From NCBI GenBank assembly GCA_947458545.1, contig CANGYH010000005.1:62001-126000 (forward strand): DNA of 64,000 bases. Reading direction: 5' to 3'. A program made the translations under genes and the position numbers. This DNA is from Cytophagaceae bacterium. GTDB lineage: Bacteria; Bacteroidota; Bacteroidia; Cytophagales; Flexibacteraceae. The notes beneath the pieces were generated by a model that worked only from the letters and a program-made list of their open reading frames with translations, was not told the origin of the DNA and ran no database searches. The first letter of the stretch is position 1. Each line of letters opens with the position of its first letter. Below are positions 51,389 to 59,145 of the stretch, one piece after another.

Positions 51389-51464
51389 GCGAAAGTAGCT
51401 CAGTTGGTAGAGCGCGACCTTGCCAAGGTCGAGGTCGCGGGTTCGAACCCCGTCTTTCGCTCCA
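51389..51464 (+). tRNA. tRNA-Gly (GCC)
   Basis: 76 bases. Acceptor stem GCGAAAG with CTTTCGC, D arm AGCTCAGTTGGTAGAGC, anticodon stem CGACC/GGTCG with loop TTGCCAA (anticodon GCC), T arm with GGTTCGAACCC, and an encoded CCA end. Reads glycine codons GGC and GGT. Confidence 0.97.
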
Positions 51465-51492
51465 GAAAAAGCCGCCCCAAAGGCGGCTTTTT
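51465..51492 (+). terminator. Hairpin with T run after tRNA-Gly
   Basis: AAAAAGCCGCC and its near-complement AGGCGGCTTTTTT form a strong hairpin within the 65 bases between the two tRNA genes. It may end part of the transcript or serve processing. Confidence 0.8.
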
Positions 51493-51529
51493 TGTTATGG
51501 GGCCAGCGCCGCAAGGCAGCGGCCCGGTT

Positions 51530-51618
51530 GCCGGGATGGCGGAACAGGTAGACGCGCCGGACTTAAAATCCTGTGAGCCGTAAGGCTCGTGCGGGTTCGA
51601 TTCCCGCTCTCGGTACCA
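51530..51618 (+). tRNA. tRNA-Leu (TAA)
   Basis: 89 bases with the long variable arm of class II tRNAs (GAGCCGTAAGGCTC). Acceptor stem GCCGGGA with TCTCGGT (two G-U pairs), anticodon loop CTTAAAA (anticodon TAA), T arm GGGTTCGATTCCC, and an encoded CCA. Reads leucine codons TTA and TTG. Confidence 0.96.
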
Positions 51619-51656: not shown

Positions 51657-52189
51657 TTTTACCGCAAATAACTGCCCGATAGGAGCTAACTGACAGGTGC
51701 TTTTCTAGCATCTCATTATCAGTATCTTAAAAAATAATTTCAGATTTTTTTACAGGCCTTTTAACATCTACCCCCTGCCTGGGCGTCTTACGGGTAGATC
51801 CTTCAAAACTGCATTTATCCTCCGTACCCCTGCCTGGCAGGCTTGCCCCTCAAGCACATTCTTTTGCTCGTAGAGAATTCAACCGGAAATTATATCCTTG
51901 CTCCCCCCCTCTTCATAAATAATTCAGACCGCACTGCTTTACCAGCCTTTCTTTATCCTGCCTATTCTTAAGCTACCTGCCCCCTCCGGTATTTAGGTTT
52001 AGCACTTTTTACCCTTTGCGTCGCCGGCGTTTGGTTGGGCTGTACACCCAGGTGGCCTTGGTGGCCCAACCAACCGGCGTTTTTATCTTTACCAGGCCCG
52101 TTGCCAGATTCTGGTTGGGGCACGGTGGCCTTACTTCACAATAAAGCCCGTTGCCTCTGGGCAAGTGGGTTATCCTAACTTTTGTAGAA
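51657..52189. other. AT-rich gene-poor gap after the tRNA genes
   Basis: About 530 bases, AT-rich and C/T-biased on the plus strand in its first half, with no convincing gene. A GGGTAGATCC-like word occurs once near 51800. A large hairpin with a T run lies at 52022-52085. A 65-codon minus-strand frame (52009-52206, ending KTPVGWATKATWVYSPTKRR) overlaps the hairpin; I do not call it a gene. Gaps behind tRNA genes are frequent integration sites, but no integrase or att repeat of the tRNA 3' end was found here. Confidence 0.5.
52022..52085 (+). terminator. Large hairpin with T run
   Basis: CGCCGG (52022-52027) and TTGGTTGGGC (52031-52040) pair with GCCCAACCAA (52064-52073) and CCGGCG (52074-52079), leaving a 3-base bulge and a 23-base loop, then TTTTTAT. 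It has the form of a terminator, though no gene ends just before it on the plus strand. Confidence 0.6.
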
Positions 52190-53218
52190 TTGCTATCCAT
52201 CTTCAAGACCGATACCAGCTATTGCAGGCTGGCCTGCCAAATCGTTCTGGCAGGCCTTTTTGCGTTTGCGGCCCTGGGCTGCAACCGTGTGAGCCAAGGG
52301 CCAGATCCGGCACCGATCCGCCCTCTGCCCACAAGCCTGGCACGCCTTACGCTAACAACAAACGCCCAGGGCTATGCCGAGGTAAGGCTTGATACGCTGG
52401 CCCAGGCCTCTGGATTGCGCTTCACCTTTGGCACGTTTGCCCACGGCGAGCTGATCGTCACCAATCAAGGCCGCACCCTGCGCTACCAGGCAACCGACAC
52501 CAGCCGCACCTGGCAAGCAGACTCATCCGACTTTACCGCCTGTCTTACCGACGGCAGCCGATGCCGCAACGGCAAGCTGGTGGTGCGCAACGCCCGCTAC
52601 CAGGCCCCCGCCGTGGCAGACTCTACCTGCACCCCGCTGCAACTGCCCTTGCGGTATGTACCCTTGCTGGGCACGGTAACCATGCGCTGGCTGCCCGCAG
52701 GGCTGCAAGGGCGCATTTACACCCGCAACCTGTTTTATACCCTCAACCGCTCTACGCAAGACACCATGGCCTTCGTGTATGTGGCGGCGGGGGGCGCACA
52801 GGATGTGTTTGCCGGTTTTGACGACATCGAGGTGGACGTCCGCGCCGCTGATGGACGGCGCTATTGCGGCGTGCAGTCGCTCGTCATCGGCGACACGTGC
52901 CAGCCCCGGGCACGGGCAGACGCCTTCAGCATTTTACCAACCGGTGCCACTTACCTGACGGCGGCCTCGCTCTGGATTAACGACACCGGCTGCCGAGGTA
53001 ATACAGACCGCTTTGTGGTGCGTCTGGCACCCCGGCCATATGTGGGGGCGCTTAGGCTGCCAACGCTTTATGGCACCGTCACAGATACCCTGCTGGGCGG
53101 TACACAGGTACTTGCCTACCGCCGCACCCGCCCCGGCCCCGAGCCAGACCGTTTTTACTACTACCTAGAATCAACCACGTCTCGGTTTGTGAGCCGCGCG
53201 TGGATAACCCTCCGATAG
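52190..53218 (+). CDS. Lipoprotein of unknown function
   Basis: 342 residues from TTG 52190; the frame also holds a TTG at 52151. The shorter start gives a lipoprotein signal (IVLAGLFAFAALGC-NRV, lipobox ALGC). The mature protein is beta-rich with conserved-looking pairs of cysteines (SSDFTACLTDGSRCRNGKL, RRYCGVQSLVIGDTCQPRA, NDTGCRGNTD) that could form disulfides in the periplasm. Patterns such as MRWLPAGLQGRIYTRNLFYT suggest a two-domain beta-sandwich. I do not recognise a family. It is the first of five co-directional envelope genes and ends 108 bases before the ECF sigma gene. Confidence 0.68.
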   Translation: MLSIFKTDTSYCRLACQIVLAGLFAFAALGCNRVSQGPDPAPIRPLPTSLARLTLTTNAQGYAEVRLDTLAQASGLRFTFGTFAHGELIVTNQGRTLRYQATDTSRTWQADSSDFTACLTDGSRCRNGKLVVRNARYQAPAVADSTCTPLQLPLRYVPLLGTVTMRWLPAGLQGRIYTRNLFYTLNRSTQDTMAFVYVAAGGAQDVFAGFDDIEVDVRAADGRRYCGVQSLVIGDTCQPRARADAFSILPTGATYLTAASLWINDTGCRGNTDRFVVRLAPRPYVGALRLPTLYGTVTDTLLGGTQVLAYRRTRPGPEPDRFYYYLESTTSRFVSRAWITLR

Positions 53219-53326: not shown

Positions 53327-53896
53327 TTGTCAGACCAAGACCTCGTCTCTGCCTGCTTGCGCCGACACCGGCCTGCCGAGCGCGCTTTCTTTGAGCGCTT
53401 TGCGGGCATGGCTATGGCTATCTGCAGGCGCTATGCCCAAGACGCACACGAGGCCGCCGACATGCAGCAAGAGGGCTTTATCAAGTGTTTCAGGCTCTTG
53501 GCCCAATACGGGGGCACGGGGTCGCTAGAGGGTTGGGTACGGCGCGTTTTCGTAACCACTTGTCTGGATCTGCTGCGCCAGCGCCGACGCCAGACAGCCT
53601 GGGCAGCCCCGCTAGACGACGCCCTGGGCCTTGAGGCACCGGCAGACAATGCCTTTTTGCTAAGCGCAGACGCAGCCGACCTTACAGATGCCATTGCCGC
53701 CTTGCCCGACGGAGCGCGTGTGGTTTTCAACCTCTTTGCCGTAGAAGGATACAGCCATGCAGAAATCAGTAAGATTATGGCCATCAGCGAGGGCAGTAGC
53801 CGCTCGCAGCTAAACCGGGCGCGTACGCTGCTAAAAGTGTACCTGCTAAGGGCAAACGCGCCCAAAACATCACCTGCCTATCCTAACCCGTCATGA
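53327..53896 (+). CDS. ECF RNA polymerase sigma factor
   Basis: 189 residues. Sigma region 2 is at about 20-90 (YAQDAHEAADMQQEGFIKCF with the DxxQ.GF core, GSLEGWVRRVFVTTCLDLLR) and region 4 at about 115-175 (LPDGARVVFNLFAVEGYSHA, EISKIMAISEGSSRSQLNRA). This is a typical Bacteroidota ECF factor. The start is TTG 53327; no in-frame ATG precedes region 2. Its stop overlaps the next gene's ATG (ATGA), so the sigma factor and the membrane fusion protein downstream are translationally coupled, which is the normal arrangement for a sigma and its anti-sigma factor. Confidence 0.93.
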   Translation: MSDQDLVSACLRRHRPAERAFFERFAGMAMAICRRYAQDAHEAADMQQEGFIKCFRLLAQYGGTGSLEGWVRRVFVTTCLDLLRQRRRQTAWAAPLDDALGLEAPADNAFLLSADAADLTDAIAALPDGARVVFNLFAVEGYSHAEISKIMAISEGSSRSQLNRARTLLKVYLLRANAPKTSPAYPNPS

Positions 53897-55617
53897 CAGA
53901 AGATCTCTTACCCCAGCCCGACCCTCAATCTGCAGGCAGCGGAGCCGGCTTTTTGGCCGACAAGCTGGCCCGGCATGCAGAGCCTAGCCCCGCCGATGCC
54001 TGGCAGCAACTGGAGCACAACCTGGATGCACGCCCCCACCGGTGGCGGCCCTTGGGCTTTTGGATGCTGGCTGCCTTGCTGGTGGCCCTGCCGCTATCTC
54101 TCTGGCAATGGCAACGCAAGGCCCTGGATGGCAAGCCCGCAGAGGCTTACGCCACAGGCCCAGAGGCTGGCCAAGTAGCGCACACGGCCAGGGGCAGCCA
54201 AGGGGCAAATGCCGCAAGCGGGCAATTACCGGCCGATGATGCGTCTGCCAGAGGAGCAGAAGGCGGGCAAGCGGGCGGGGGACAAACAAATGCCACGGCT
54301 GTGGCAGGGCCAAATGAGGCTATGCCAAAGACCACCCAAGCCTTAGACCATGGGTATCTGGCTCGTGGGTCAGAACCGACCCGGCAAGTCGCCGAAGGAG
54401 GTATTGCTTCAGACGCAGCAAGTCTTGGCTCTCAAACCCAGGCGCCAGGCCAAGGTGCAGTGCCGCAGGCTGGCAGCCTAGGGCATACAGGAGCCGCCAG
54501 CGGCACTGGCATGGGCCTTTCTGGCGTAGGCGGCGTGCAGGGTATGGTGGCCCTGCGTAGCGTTCGCACAGAGCGCCGTGCCACACAGCGTCACCCGGGC
54601 AACGAGGCCCATCCATCGCCCCAGGGCAAAACCGGCCAGGCCTCTGCGGCGCGCTACGCGGCAGACCCTGCCGATGCCGAGGCACACAGCACCACCGCAA
54701 AGGCCCAAACGCAAAGCGGCAGCGCGGGCACAGGCAATACCGCAGGCAACGGTGCAGGCTCCAGCGGCTCGGCTACAACCAATGCAGAGGCGGGCGGCAG
54801 GCCAACGGATACAAACCAGGGCTCGGCAACCACTGCCGAGGTGGCCGGGGTAGGTACCGATATGCCTAAAACTGGCCAAGGCACAGGTATGCCAGGCCAG
54901 GCGGCAGACAGCGCCACCCAAGTAGCGCAACGGCAAGCGCCCAAGGCCGACAGCCTGCCTAAGACTGTTACGCCGACAACCCCCAAAGCCAAATCGCGCA
55001 TCTGGCAGATTGGCGTAGTAGCAGGTGGCGGCGGCTGGCAGCAGCAGGCCCAACTGCCTGCCACAGCCCTGCAGCCCGATGCCGTCAGCTATACGCATGT
55101 GGCTAATCTGCAAACGGGGCCTGTGTTTAACATCGGGGCTTTTGTGCGGCGGCCTATCGGTGCGCGCCTAGGCTTAGAGCTACGCCTGGCCGTGCGCTAT
55201 GCAAGCCAAACGCTAACCATGCACCACATGCCGGGGCCAGGTGCACCCATTACCTATACCCAGGTGGGGCGTACGGTGCTGGCTATGCCACCTGCTACGG
55301 TAGAGCATACCTTGCATAGAAGGCTCGTTTTGCCAGCCGCCTTTGTGCAGGTCTCTTATGGCCTAACGCCTAAACTGTCCGCTACGGCAGGCGCCGGTTT
55401 GCAGGCAAACCTAGCCACGGGGCAAATTGCCGAAGCTGCAGGCTTGCCGTGGCTATCGCCGATGCTATCGGCAGGCCTGCGTCGGCAGCTTACGCCAAAG
55501 TTGGCCGTTGGCCTGCAGGGTAGCTTCTTTGGCTGGAGGCAGAGCGCACTGCCAACGCTATCTAACAGCAGCAGCACCAACCAGTTGGGGCTCATCAATC
55601 TGGAGTATGGGTTTTAG
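53893..55617 (+). CDS. Anti-sigma-like membrane protein fused to an outer-membrane barrel
   Basis: 574 residues in three parts. Residues 1-50 are cytoplasmic and carry FLADKLARHAEPSPADAWQQ-LEHNLD, a helix pattern seen in Bacteroidota anti-sigma N-termini. A single membrane helix follows (about 55-72, FWMLAALLVALPLSLWQWQR). Residues 76-365 are a Gly/Ala/Gln/Thr-rich linker without hydrophobic segments. Residues about 370-574 look like a small outer-membrane beta-barrel (IWQIGVVAGGGGWQQQA, FNIGAFVRRPIGARLGLELR, LGLINLEYGF ending in aromatic Phe). The chain could span both membranes. Translational coupling to the ECF sigma factor supports a control role. Function is inferred, not shown. Confidence 0.75.
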   Translation: MTEDLLPQPDPQSAGSGAGFLADKLARHAEPSPADAWQQLEHNLDARPHRWRPLGFWMLAALLVALPLSLWQWQRKALDGKPAEAYATGPEAGQVAHTARGSQGANAASGQLPADDASARGAEGGQAGGGQTNATAVAGPNEAMPKTTQALDHGYLARGSEPTRQVAEGGIASDAASLGSQTQAPGQGAVPQAGSLGHTGAASGTGMGLSGVGGVQGMVALRSVRTERRATQRHPGNEAHPSPQGKTGQASAARYAADPADAEAHSTTAKAQTQSGSAGTGNTAGNGAGSSGSATTNAEAGGRPTDTNQGSATTAEVAGVGTDMPKTGQGTGMPGQAADSATQVAQRQAPKADSLPKTVTPTTPKAKSRIWQIGVVAGGGGWQQQAQLPATALQPDAVSYTHVANLQTGPVFNIGAFVRRPIGARLGLELRLAVRYASQTLTMHHMPGPGAPITYTQVGRTVLAMPPATVEHTLHRRLVLPAAFVQVSYGLTPKLSATAGAGLQANLATGQIAEAAGLPWLSPMLSAGLRRQLTPKLAVGLQGSFFGWRQSALPTLSNSSSTNQLGLINLEYGF

Positions 55618-55697: not shown

Positions 55698-57629
55698 ATG
55701 CATAGATTGAATTTTTGGCTGGCGGTGATTGCCAGCCTGGTGGCCAGCACGGCCGCTGCCCAACAGGTGGCACCTGTGGCTTTCATCAACGAAATCCACA
55801 ACGAAAACTCGCAGGCCAGAGAGTTTACAGAGATCGTCGTAGCGCAAGATGGGCTAGACCTGCGCGACCATTACCTGGGCGACAACAACGGGAACACCGA
55901 TAGTTGGCAGCCCAAGGTGCGCTTTACAAACGATGCGCTCTGGGCCAACCTGCGGGCGGGCACCTACATCATCGTTTACCACGCCATCAACGGGGCAGAC
56001 TGCCAGGCTATCCGCCCAGACGAGGATGCCGCTGACGGCTTTTTGCGCGTATGCGCCCAAAACACGCGCCTTTTTGAGCGAGGCAATACCAGCCAGTCGC
56101 TCAACCTCAACAGCTCGGGCGACTTTTTGCATCTGGTTGCGCCGGGCGGGGCCATGATCCAGGGTCTTGGGTACGACCCCAGCCCCGGCAGCAGCGTCGT
56201 GGGTGGGCCGTGCTTTAATACCAGCACGCGTTGGACGAGCGTCAACAGGACAGAAGATGACGTAAGGCCTTGCGGGCGCTTTTTGTTTGTAGAAGAGAGC
56301 CTGGACAACGGCCGCAGCCTGGGCTACATCGGGGGCACTTTGCAGGGGCTTATACCCTCAACAGGCACTTTGTATGCCGACTCTAATGCAGGCACATTGC
56401 TCAACTACGTGCGCCCCAGCGAGGGCCACGGCAACCAGGCCGTATCTGGCCCAAGTGCTGCCAACGTAGAGCTTATCAAACAACTGCGCCAACCTGCCTG
56501 GCCGCTGGCCACCAGCGCCTGCATAACGCTGGCAAACGGCAGGCCCAGCTTCCGCTTTAGCCTGGCCACAGACCCTACCCCGGCAGATGGCATTACGCGC
56601 TACCTGGTTATCCGTTACCCGGCGGCACCTTTGGCCACCGACCCACCCCCGGCAGATGGTATTACCTACCGCGCCGGAGAGCCGCTTGGCACCGGCACAG
56701 TAGTAGAGCCCGGCCTGGCCCGACTAAGCGGCGGAGCCACAACCTACCGCGATGCAGCAGGCTCGCCTAACAGCCATTACCGTGTTTACGCCTACCGCTA
56801 CACCGATGCCAACAGCGCCGACGACCGCGGCAGTGCCTACAACGAGGCCGAGTTTGTGCAGGCCTCGCCAGGTGCGCGGCCCTTGCTGACGGGCGGCCCC
56901 ACCCGCCTCTGCCCGGGCGACACGGCCCGGTTTGCCCTGATTTACAACGGCCCCGGGCCCTTGCAGCTATCAGCATCGCGGCCGGGGGTTACGGTGCGGC
57001 AAGAGGGCGTGCTGGTAACGGTAACTACCGACACCAGCTTTGCAAGCGGAGACAGCGTTACCATACGTGCGGTGCCGCCTGCCGTCAGCATCTGTACGCG
57101 GGCAGATTCTGTAAAGCTTTTGCTGTTTAAGCCGGTGCTTCGCATCGTGGGCGATACCGTTGTGCCCGCGGGTGGCAGCGGAGAGATCCGCATCGTGGCC
57201 GGGCGCGGGCCCTTCGACATTACCCCACCCAACCAGTTGCTGGTGAGAGACTCGGCCACCTACGTTTTCATCAACGCCGTGCCGGGTACCACCTACACCT
57301 TCAGAACCAGAGAGCAGGCCAACAGCACGCGCTGCCTGGCCCAGGCCAGCCTAACCCTGCGCGAGCAGCCTGTGGTGCCACCTGTGCCGCTGGTTATCCC
57401 CAACGTGGTAGTACCGGCGGGCCTGCCCAACAACCGCACCTTCCGCATACTGGGGGCCGTGGTAGATAGACTGGAGATCTTCGGCCGCTGGGGCAACCGC
57501 GTGCTAGAGGCCGCCCCCTACGCCAACGACTGGGCCGGCAAGCCGGGGGTGTACTTCTACACGGCGAGCCTAACGCTGCCCAATGGCCAGCGCCAGACCG
57601 CCAAAGGCTGGGTAGAGGTAGTACAGTAG
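55698..57629 (+). CDS. Secreted protein with lamin-tail-like domain and T9SS type B sorting domain
   Basis: 643 residues. Signal peptide MHRLNFWLAVIASLVASTAA. Residues about 25-170 resemble a lamin-tail domain (VAFINEIHNENSQAREFTEI, LWANLRAGTYIIVYHA, GDFLHLVAPGGAMIQGLGYD). The C-terminal 90 residues match the gliding-motility-associated (CHU_C, type B) sorting domain: VVVPAGLPNNRTFRILGAVV, LEIFGRWGNRVLEAAPYAND, WAGKPGVYFYTASL. Such proteins leave the cell through T9SS and often stay cell-attached. An imperfect internal duplication (LATDPTPADGIT and LATDPPPADGIT) lies at about residues 290-322. Function unknown. Confidence 0.87.
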   Translation: MHRLNFWLAVIASLVASTAAAQQVAPVAFINEIHNENSQAREFTEIVVAQDGLDLRDHYLGDNNGNTDSWQPKVRFTNDALWANLRAGTYIIVYHAINGADCQAIRPDEDAADGFLRVCAQNTRLFERGNTSQSLNLNSSGDFLHLVAPGGAMIQGLGYDPSPGSSVVGGPCFNTSTRWTSVNRTEDDVRPCGRFLFVEESLDNGRSLGYIGGTLQGLIPSTGTLYADSNAGTLLNYVRPSEGHGNQAVSGPSAANVELIKQLRQPAWPLATSACITLANGRPSFRFSLATDPTPADGITRYLVIRYPAAPLATDPPPADGITYRAGEPLGTGTVVEPGLARLSGGATTYRDAAGSPNSHYRVYAYRYTDANSADDRGSAYNEAEFVQASPGARPLLTGGPTRLCPGDTARFALIYNGPGPLQLSASRPGVTVRQEGVLVTVTTDTSFASGDSVTIRAVPPAVSICTRADSVKLLLFKPVLRIVGDTVVPAGGSGEIRIVAGRGPFDITPPNQLLVRDSATYVFINAVPGTTYTFRTREQANSTRCLAQASLTLREQPVVPPVPLVIPNVVVPAGLPNNRTFRILGAVVDRLEIFGRWGNRVLEAAPYANDWAGKPGVYFYTASLTLPNGQRQTAKGWVEVVQ

Positions 57630-57659: not shown

Positions 57660-57694
57660 GCGGGCCCATGCGCCGAGCAGGGGCCCGCTTTTGT
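57660..57694 (+). terminator. Terminator of the T9SS type B gene
   Basis: GCGGGCCC (57660-57667) pairs with GGGCCCGC (57681-57688), then TTTTGTT. It also lies just before the next start, ATG 57709. Confidence 0.8.
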
Positions 57695-57708
57695 TCTATA
57701 TTGCAAGC

Positions 57709-59145
57709 ATGTCCTTACGCTCTCTGGCAGGCCTTTTGGCTTGTATCGTATTGTCTGCCCCCGCCAGCGGGCAAGACTGGGCCGGCCTTTCCGTCAGCAG
57801 CTTTGGGGGTATGCATGCCGCCCTTGCCAACCCGGCCATGCTGGGCACCATGCGTCACCGTTTGCAGGTTGGCACACTGGCCACCAATGCCCAACTGAGC
57901 ACAAACATGTTGACCTACACAGGCCCCTCGGGCCTGCGGAATCTGTTTACGCCCTACATGCTCACGGGCAATGCTTACGACTATCTGCGCGGCTCTAACC
58001 TTTCAGAAGGTTTGCAGAGCATCTTCGACGGAGGGCGTTGGCAGCGCATCCGCAGTGGCGACCCGAAAGATTTTTCGGCCACGGCCGAGCTGCGGGGGCC
58101 CTTTCTGGCGGGGACTATCGGCGGGCTCGGCGTTGGGATGGGCTACCGCCTTAGGGGTGGGCTACAACTTGCCAACGTGAGCGCCTCTGTGGCAGACCTG
58201 TTTTTTAGTGGCACCACCGGCGTAGATCCGCTGGTGCTGGGTGCGGCCTTGCGAGACAGTAAATTTTCTGCCAGCGCCAACGCCTACCACGAGTTTTATG
58301 GTACGGTGGCTTTCCCTGCCCTAAAGCTGGGGCGCCATTACCTGGGCGGAGGCATAACGCTCAAATACCTGGCTGGCATTTACTCGGCAGGGGTTATCAA
58401 CCGGGGCTTGAGTTACAAGATATTAGGGCCAGACTCGCTGCTCACCACCGAGGCCGACATCTCGTATCAATACGTAAACAACAACCTGCTGGCCGACGAC
58501 CCCACCGCTGCCCGGGGCAACGGTGCCGGTGTAGATATCGGTGCTATTTACGAGTACCGCGGCCTGAACGACGACGACCAACCCTACGGGCCTGGCAAGG
58601 GCAGGCATGTGCTGCGGGCAGGTCTGTCTGTGGTAGATGCAGGGCGCATCAGCTACGACGGCCAGGGCATCCGCGCGTTCGACTTTAAGCGGAGAGACAG
58701 CCTCAACATCTGGGGCTCTATTGATACGCTGCGCGTACGCGGTACTGCGAGCCTAGACAGTGTTTTTAACCAGGTCTTCGGGGCTGCCAATTCTCGGCAG
58801 AGCTTTAACACCGGCCTGCCTGCCATGGTGAATGTATTTGTGGACGTGCGCCTGTTCAAGTTCATTTACCTGACGGCCAAAACGAGCCAGAGCCTGATTG
58901 CCATTGACCGAGGCGGCCTAAGGGCTTTCTCTGGCCTGACGTTGATGCCAAGGCTAGAGACGCGGCTTTTTGAGGTAGCCATTCCGATGGGTATCGGGCT
59001 GGGGTATAGCTACTTCCAGCCCGGATTTTTTGCCCGGATTTCTGGCTTCTTTGTAGGGTCAGACAATCTGAGTACGCTTTTTGGCGTAGGCAACCGGGCC
59101 GGCATGAGCTTCTATGCAGGCGGCTTCGTACCCATCAGGCGGTAG
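57709..59145 (+). CDS. DUF5723-type outer-membrane protein
   Basis: 478 residues. Signal peptide LLACIVLSAPASGQ, followed by the pattern GMHAALANPAMLGTMRHRLQ and alternating beta-strand segments with turns (HYLGGGITLKYLAGIYSAGV, HVLRAGLSVVDAGRISYDGQ, VFVDVRLFKFIYLTAKTSQS) ending in SFYAGGFVPIRR. The opening and size fit DUF5723, a Bacteroidota group of probable outer-membrane barrels of unknown function. ATG 57709 is preferred to the ATG at 57691. It converges on the histidine kinase gene with a 32-base gap. Confidence 0.8.
   Translation: MSLRSLAGLLACIVLSAPASGQDWAGLSVSSFGGMHAALANPAMLGTMRHRLQVGTLATNAQLSTNMLTYTGPSGLRNLFTPYMLTGNAYDYLRGSNLSEGLQSIFDGGRWQRIRSGDPKDFSATAELRGPFLAGTIGGLGVGMGYRLRGGLQLANVSASVADLFFSGTTGVDPLVLGAALRDSKFSASANAYHEFYGTVAFPALKLGRHYLGGGITLKYLAGIYSAGVINRGLSYKILGPDSLLTTEADISYQYVNNNLLADDPTAARGNGAGVDIGAIYEYRGLNDDDQPYGPGKGRHVLRAGLSVVDAGRISYDGQGIRAFDFKRRDSLNIWGSIDTLRVRGTASLDSVFNQVFGAANSRQSFNTGLPAMVNVFVDVRLFKFIYLTAKTSQSLIAIDRGGLRAFSGLTLMPRLETRLFEVAIPMGIGLGYSYFQPGFFARISGFFVGSDNLSTLFGVGNRAGMSFYAGGFVPIRR

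Follow-up and report, generated by a model that had tools for sequence, protein, structure and literature searches.

The locus described here lies in a window of 64,000 nucleotides, by which we mean the whole stretch of DNA that was analysed, from a Cytophagaceae bacterium of the Bacteroidota. An ECF sigma factor gene is followed there by a partner gene on the same strand, and the features of the region, numbered as in the window, are as follows.

52151-53218, + strand: predicted lipoprotein, candidate third component, at most 355 aa, true start uncertain
53327-53896, + strand: ECF sigma factor gene by Pfam and NCBIfam, Das/EcfO-like, 189 aa, TTG start
53893-53896, + strand: ATGA stop/start overlap of the sigma gene and the partner gene, read directly
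53893-55617, + strand: predicted Dma/Reo-type anti-sigma/outer-membrane-barrel fusion, 574 aa, from the AlphaFold domain order and profile matches at both ends
53893-54051, + strand: residues 1-53 of the partner, predicted cytoplasmic anti-sigma-like segment, helices at 17-27 and 34-45
54052-54132, + strand: residues 54-80, putative inner-membrane helix, from the hydropathy peak and the AlphaFold helix
54133-54987, + strand: residues 81-365, low-complexity linker (tether), predicted disordered from pLDDT and composition
54988-55614, + strand: residues 366-574, predicted eight-stranded outer-membrane barrel, ending in LINLEYGF
55698-57629, + strand: CHU_C type IX secretion-signal protein gene, downstream of the pair
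57691-59145, + strand: DUF5723 protein gene, downstream of the pair

Membership of the CHU_C and DUF5723 genes in one operon with the pair is unsupported, and nothing similar was seen beside the paralogues by ORF inspection alone. On the other side of the pair, tRNA-Gly and tRNA-Leu genes are located at 51389-51618, and the minus-strand ORFs that run over them are probably spurious.

Judged from its sequence, the product of 53327-53896 is clearly a member of the ECF sigma family, as its matches to Sigma70_r2 (2e-12), Sigma70_r4_2 (8e-14) and TIGR02937 (1.2e-25) are all above the curated cut-offs of Pfam and NCBIfam. The TTG start of the gene aligns with the ATG of its closest paralogue. The original prediction had stated that this gene and the next one overlap by ATGA, and the two ORFs, their coordinates and the overlap at 53893-53896 were found just as first noted; among the surveyed relatives, moreover, a 4-base overlap is the most frequent spacing between sigma gene and partner. 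The same genome holds three paralogues of the sigma factor, which are 57, 43 and 40% identical to it, and downstream of each lies a gene for a protein of 482-517 residues with a single helix. As for regulatory signals, no 6-mer or gapped pair in the upstream regions of 17 sigma genes rose above simulated controls as a common promoter motif, no sigma-70-type promoter was found near the pair, and no terminator-like site was found near it on the + strand, the count being below that of shuffles.

The partner protein shows a single hydropathy peak, that is, a single hydrophobic helix, and its full-length AlphaFold model is ordered into two helices (residues 17-27 and 34-45), a membrane helix at 54-80, a disordered stretch, and strands between 372 and 573. 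The alignments behind the models consisted of the window protein and relatives of its locus, with a depth of only 37 sequences. Peak and model agree with the single inner-membrane helix that had been proposed from the sequence, and the linker of about 290 low-complexity residues proposed along with it turns out to comprise residues 81-365, 285 residues in all, which are predicted to be disordered: nearly all of residues 81-351 have a pLDDT below 50, mostly 32-46, and the linker contains 20% Ala, 17% Gly and only 10% hydrophobic residues, compared with 32.5% in the barrel part.

For the N-terminal segment the outcome is divided. It had been proposed to compare residues 1-50 with anti-sigma domain profiles; residues 1-53 match no anti-sigma domain in Pfam, while residues 1-52 do match the N-terminal profile of the relatives with 20.4 bits, where the best of 300 shuffles gives 7.3. 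When the membrane helix was kept and residues 1-52 alone were shuffled, one of 300 shuffles reached 23.8 bits, the observed score being 37.0. The lack of a Pfam match would suit a situation in which the two genes are translationally coupled and the second product is nevertheless not the inhibitor of the sigma factor. Against such a reading, the N-terminal segment and the helix are kept beside this sigma clade even in partners that have no barrel, a P-x(2,6)-W motif occurs in 111 of 129 partners, and in characterised relatives deletion or disruption of the anti-sigma gene leaves the sigma factor active (PMC13088901, PMC9308784, PMC13114119), so we regard it as most unlikely. Trp37 of the window partner is invariant among the fused relatives.

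The C-terminal part has been less easy to place by family, since neither the whole partner nor its C-terminal end alone has a significant match in Pfam or NCBIfam. Modelled alone, the last ~210 residues form eight strands (pLDDT 77.6, pTM 0.69). A Foldseek search of the PDB gives OmpA as the best match, with OprG, Ail, OmpW and OmpX also among the 50 matches listed, and all of those 50 are outer-membrane or designed membrane barrels; with TM-scores (normalised by query length) of just 0.18-0.48, the fold class is supported and the structural detail is not. A profile built from the C-terminal ends of 65 relatives, from which the window protein and its three paralogues were excluded, matches the barrel segment with 27.8 bits (best of 300 shuffles, 4.4), and hhalign of the segment against the relatives gives a probability of 92.8% and a score of 44.7, where 60 shuffles stay at or below 17.5. 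Both ends of the partner are thus homologous to those of the relatives. The C-terminal ends of two paralogues from the same genome have diverged too far for a clear profile score, and when the barrel was compared pairwise with 147 further genomes from the phylum, no match appeared, the relatives being reached through the sigma gene only. Searched against PDB sequences, the barrel profile gave weak matches, mostly to known barrels, the best being TbuX at 8e-4, and two Natterin-like proteins were also among them. The terminal strand has an aromatic last residue, as in many of the relatives, and the LINLEYGF end presumably fits a predicted BAM substrate.

An ordinary single-membrane anti-sigma factor ending in a soluble beta domain in the periplasm would account for the missing Pfam match of this segment, and short partners without a barrel do adjoin related sigma genes. 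A soluble fold of residues 370-574 had also been named as an outcome that would speak against the original prediction. The model is instead an eight-stranded barrel of outer-membrane type, and its listed structural matches, the profile score well above the shuffles and the aromatic-ended terminal strand all point away from a soluble domain, which we consider very unlikely. An outer-membrane barrel of about 200 residues, as first proposed, is therefore the reading which the models and profiles favour.

The arrangement is by no means confined to this genome. It had been suggested to look for the same fusion beside ECF genes in other Bacteroidota, and sigma relatives were accordingly drawn from 39 related genomes and from 80 loci with record titles; the counts below refer to the 125 loci that have a complete partner ORF directly downstream of the sigma gene. 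Nearly all of these partners have one hydrophobic N-terminal helix. They comprise 68 long partners (382-769 aa, median 481) and 57 short ones (192-379 aa, median 270), and in an alignment of the titled long partners with the window protein, Pfam finds OMP_b-brl_2 in 22 of 37 rows and OMP_b-brl in 14, at the place where the window protein has its predicted barrel. The titled loci with long partners include Bacteroidales, Cyclobacteriaceae, Chitinophagaceae, Saprospiraceae and Flavobacteriales, and the sigma gene with a long partner is a common arrangement in Bacteroidota. In the sigma tree the long partners do not form one clade: a tree with such a clade is rejected (AU p = 0.0037), and 8 changes were counted, a rough figure because bootstrap leaves the tree unsettled. 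A different kind of fusion was met at L169:518-1966, where a single ORF of 482 aa encodes a related ECF sigma domain together with a likely membrane helix and a C-terminal part of no barrel-like appearance; as a sigma-anti-sigma fusion it resembles Dma3, though it lacks the barrel.

The genes that come next after the partner differ between the two forms. According to local barrel profiles, which were partly trained on the same genes, a separate barrel gene follows at 36 of the 57 short-partner loci and at none of the 68 fused loci. The naive Fisher test gives p = 1e-13 for loci that are related to one another, and a tree-corrected test had only 3 independent supported pairs and no power. Many of the next genes at short-partner loci encode proteins of ~270-440 residues, most of them with an N-terminal signal-like stretch and a barrel-like end, and 28 of 48 match OMP_b-brl_2 in Pfam. 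Examples of such putative barrel genes downstream of short anti-sigma genes are L079:2794-3831, L067:2115-3218 and L148:5569-6723, among others. When the next genes of 36 fused loci were scanned, no such barrel family appeared among the 25 of 33 families listed, and the genes found were LVIVD-repeat proteins (10), NigD_N-like lipoproteins (3) and others. The LVIVD-repeat proteins after fused pairs, for example at L122:6064-7350, in several cases have a lipoprotein-like start. In Chitinophagaceae and Crocinitomicaceae, short partners have no barrel next door. Since short partners thus occur both with and without a neighbouring barrel gene, the loci fall into three states: fused, split, or a short partner by itself. 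It seems that one relay occurs in a fused and in a split form, which is possibly new; we found no paper describing the split form, within a literature coverage that is incomplete.

A further gene may belong to the system. The predicted lipoprotein upstream of the sigma gene has no family match in Pfam; it starts with a signal-peptide-like segment, and its lipobox Cys44 is invariant across five aligned homologues. The same genome has only one homologue of it (39%), and this gene immediately precedes the closest sigma paralogue. With a five-sequence profile, 292 genomes of the order yielded six places, spread over three genomes from a single family (L153:11947-12999 on the minus strand, L175, L176 and L177 among them), and in all six a related ECF sigma gene directly follows, the match being weak and partial at one place and the sigma gene being truncated by a contig end at another. 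This exclusive link to such sigma genes may be new, and the lipoprotein could perhaps be the input or the target of the sigma system.

To understand the pair we compared it with known systems. In FecI-FecR-FecA, an outer-membrane barrel, an inner-membrane anti-sigma factor and an ECF sigma factor work in one relay made of three chains, with a FecR-type regulator and a large TonB-dependent receptor that has plug and signalling domains. The original prediction saw the window protein as one chain that could replace that relay. The one-chain part of the idea agrees with what has been published on Dma and Reo (PMC13088901, PMC9308784, PMC13114119), while the comparison with FecA is loose because the modelled barrel is small, with eight strands, and the partner has no match to a FecR-type, plug or TonB-dependent receptor domain. 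Pardue 2026 (PMC13088901) sets out the four parts of which Dma proteins consist and cites a 2024 PNAS paper as their first description; anti-sigma segment, membrane helix, disordered tether and barrel follow one another there in the same order as in the window partner. Dma1-Das1 and Dma2-Das2 of Bacteroides thetaiotaomicron (Pardue 2024, as cited in later work) share the four parts and the position of the gene beside the sigma gene. The window protein differs in being very divergent and from another bacterial family, with a lipoprotein gene upstream and no adjoining NigD gene. EcfO-Reo of Phocaeicola vulgatus and B. fragilis likewise consists of a sigma gene and then an anti-sigma factor reaching from cytoplasm to surface with a barrel end, Reo of P. 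vulgatus spanning all five compartments; what sets it apart is a known regulon, including nigD genes (PMC13114119) and O-antigen effects. Three Tannerellaceae loci of our survey have a fused partner and then a NigD_N-like gene, which ties the surveyed sigma relatives to EcfO-Reo.

Altogether, the window pair shows the structural features examined for Dma and Reo, the barrel by prediction, and it is very probably an ECF sigma/anti-sigma pair of the Das-Dma (EcfO-Reo) type. The idea of a one-chain anti-sigma factor and barrel is already published, and the window protein is a divergent new member of the Dma/Reo group. The split relatives go with the same sigma relatives, resemble the fused form in their N-terminal segment and helix, and have an OMP_b-brl_2 barrel as it does, but there the barrel is encoded separately, in the gene that follows, with a signal peptide of its own, and there is no tether; they are a closer three-gene counterpart of FecI-FecR-FecA than the fused protein is. 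Our judgement is evenly divided on a wider proposal, namely that a single relay, widespread in Bacteroidota, is built from barrel and anti-sigma factor as two modules, which have switched repeatedly between a fused and a split state, and that the fused form in this family has a dedicated upstream lipoprotein.

How the pair would work may be pictured as follows. Sigma and partner genes would be co-translated; residues 1-53 would bind and silence the sigma factor, the one helix would anchor the partner, presumably in the inner membrane, the unstructured linker of 285 residues would cross the periplasm, and BAM would insert the C-terminal eight-stranded barrel into what is expected to be the outer membrane. 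A ligand at the barrel, or a failed or damaged assembly of the barrel, would then be the signal passed along the chain, and we infer that the sigma factor is most likely released by proteolysis of the linker or of the inner-membrane part. A narrower version holds that the barrel reports the assembly state of the outer membrane and not a ligand: on failure of BAM or LPS assembly, periplasmic proteases might cleave an unassembled barrel or bare linker and so free the sigma factor, by analogy with the RseA pathway, the difference being that here the sensor is part of the chain itself. The P. vulgatus pair of orthologous type is induced by BcpT, a toxin which seems to stress the envelope, and many of the BcpT-induced genes are also induced by bacteroidetocin A, an inhibitor of BamA (Evans 2022, PMC9308784). 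The authors of the EcfO-Reo study propose outer-membrane stress as the signal (PMC13114119), and the small barrel of the window protein, in which no ligand-binding domain was detected, suits such a sensor as well. On the other hand, a glycan ligand is proposed by the authors for Dma2 (PMC13088901), and the fast divergence of the barrel, with 10-23% identity among relatives, may reflect changing ligands just as well as weak constraint. We give this narrower version an even chance within the general reading of a Dma/Reo-type relay.

By virtue of the fusion, a transcription factor would be in direct physical connection with the outer membrane, and one 3.2-Mb genome carries four such sigma/partner pairs. 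As such a connection is already known from gut Bacteroides, the present case mainly widens its range, and what deserves to be followed is how fused and split forms alternate, together with the upstream lipoprotein. Confirmation of the split form would make it possible to delete, exchange or mutate a separately encoded barrel while leaving the anti-sigma factor intact, and so to tell cutting or pulling of the tether apart from a mechanism in which the barrel binds the anti-sigma factor. The lipoprotein beside the window pair offers a concrete candidate for the input or output of the system.
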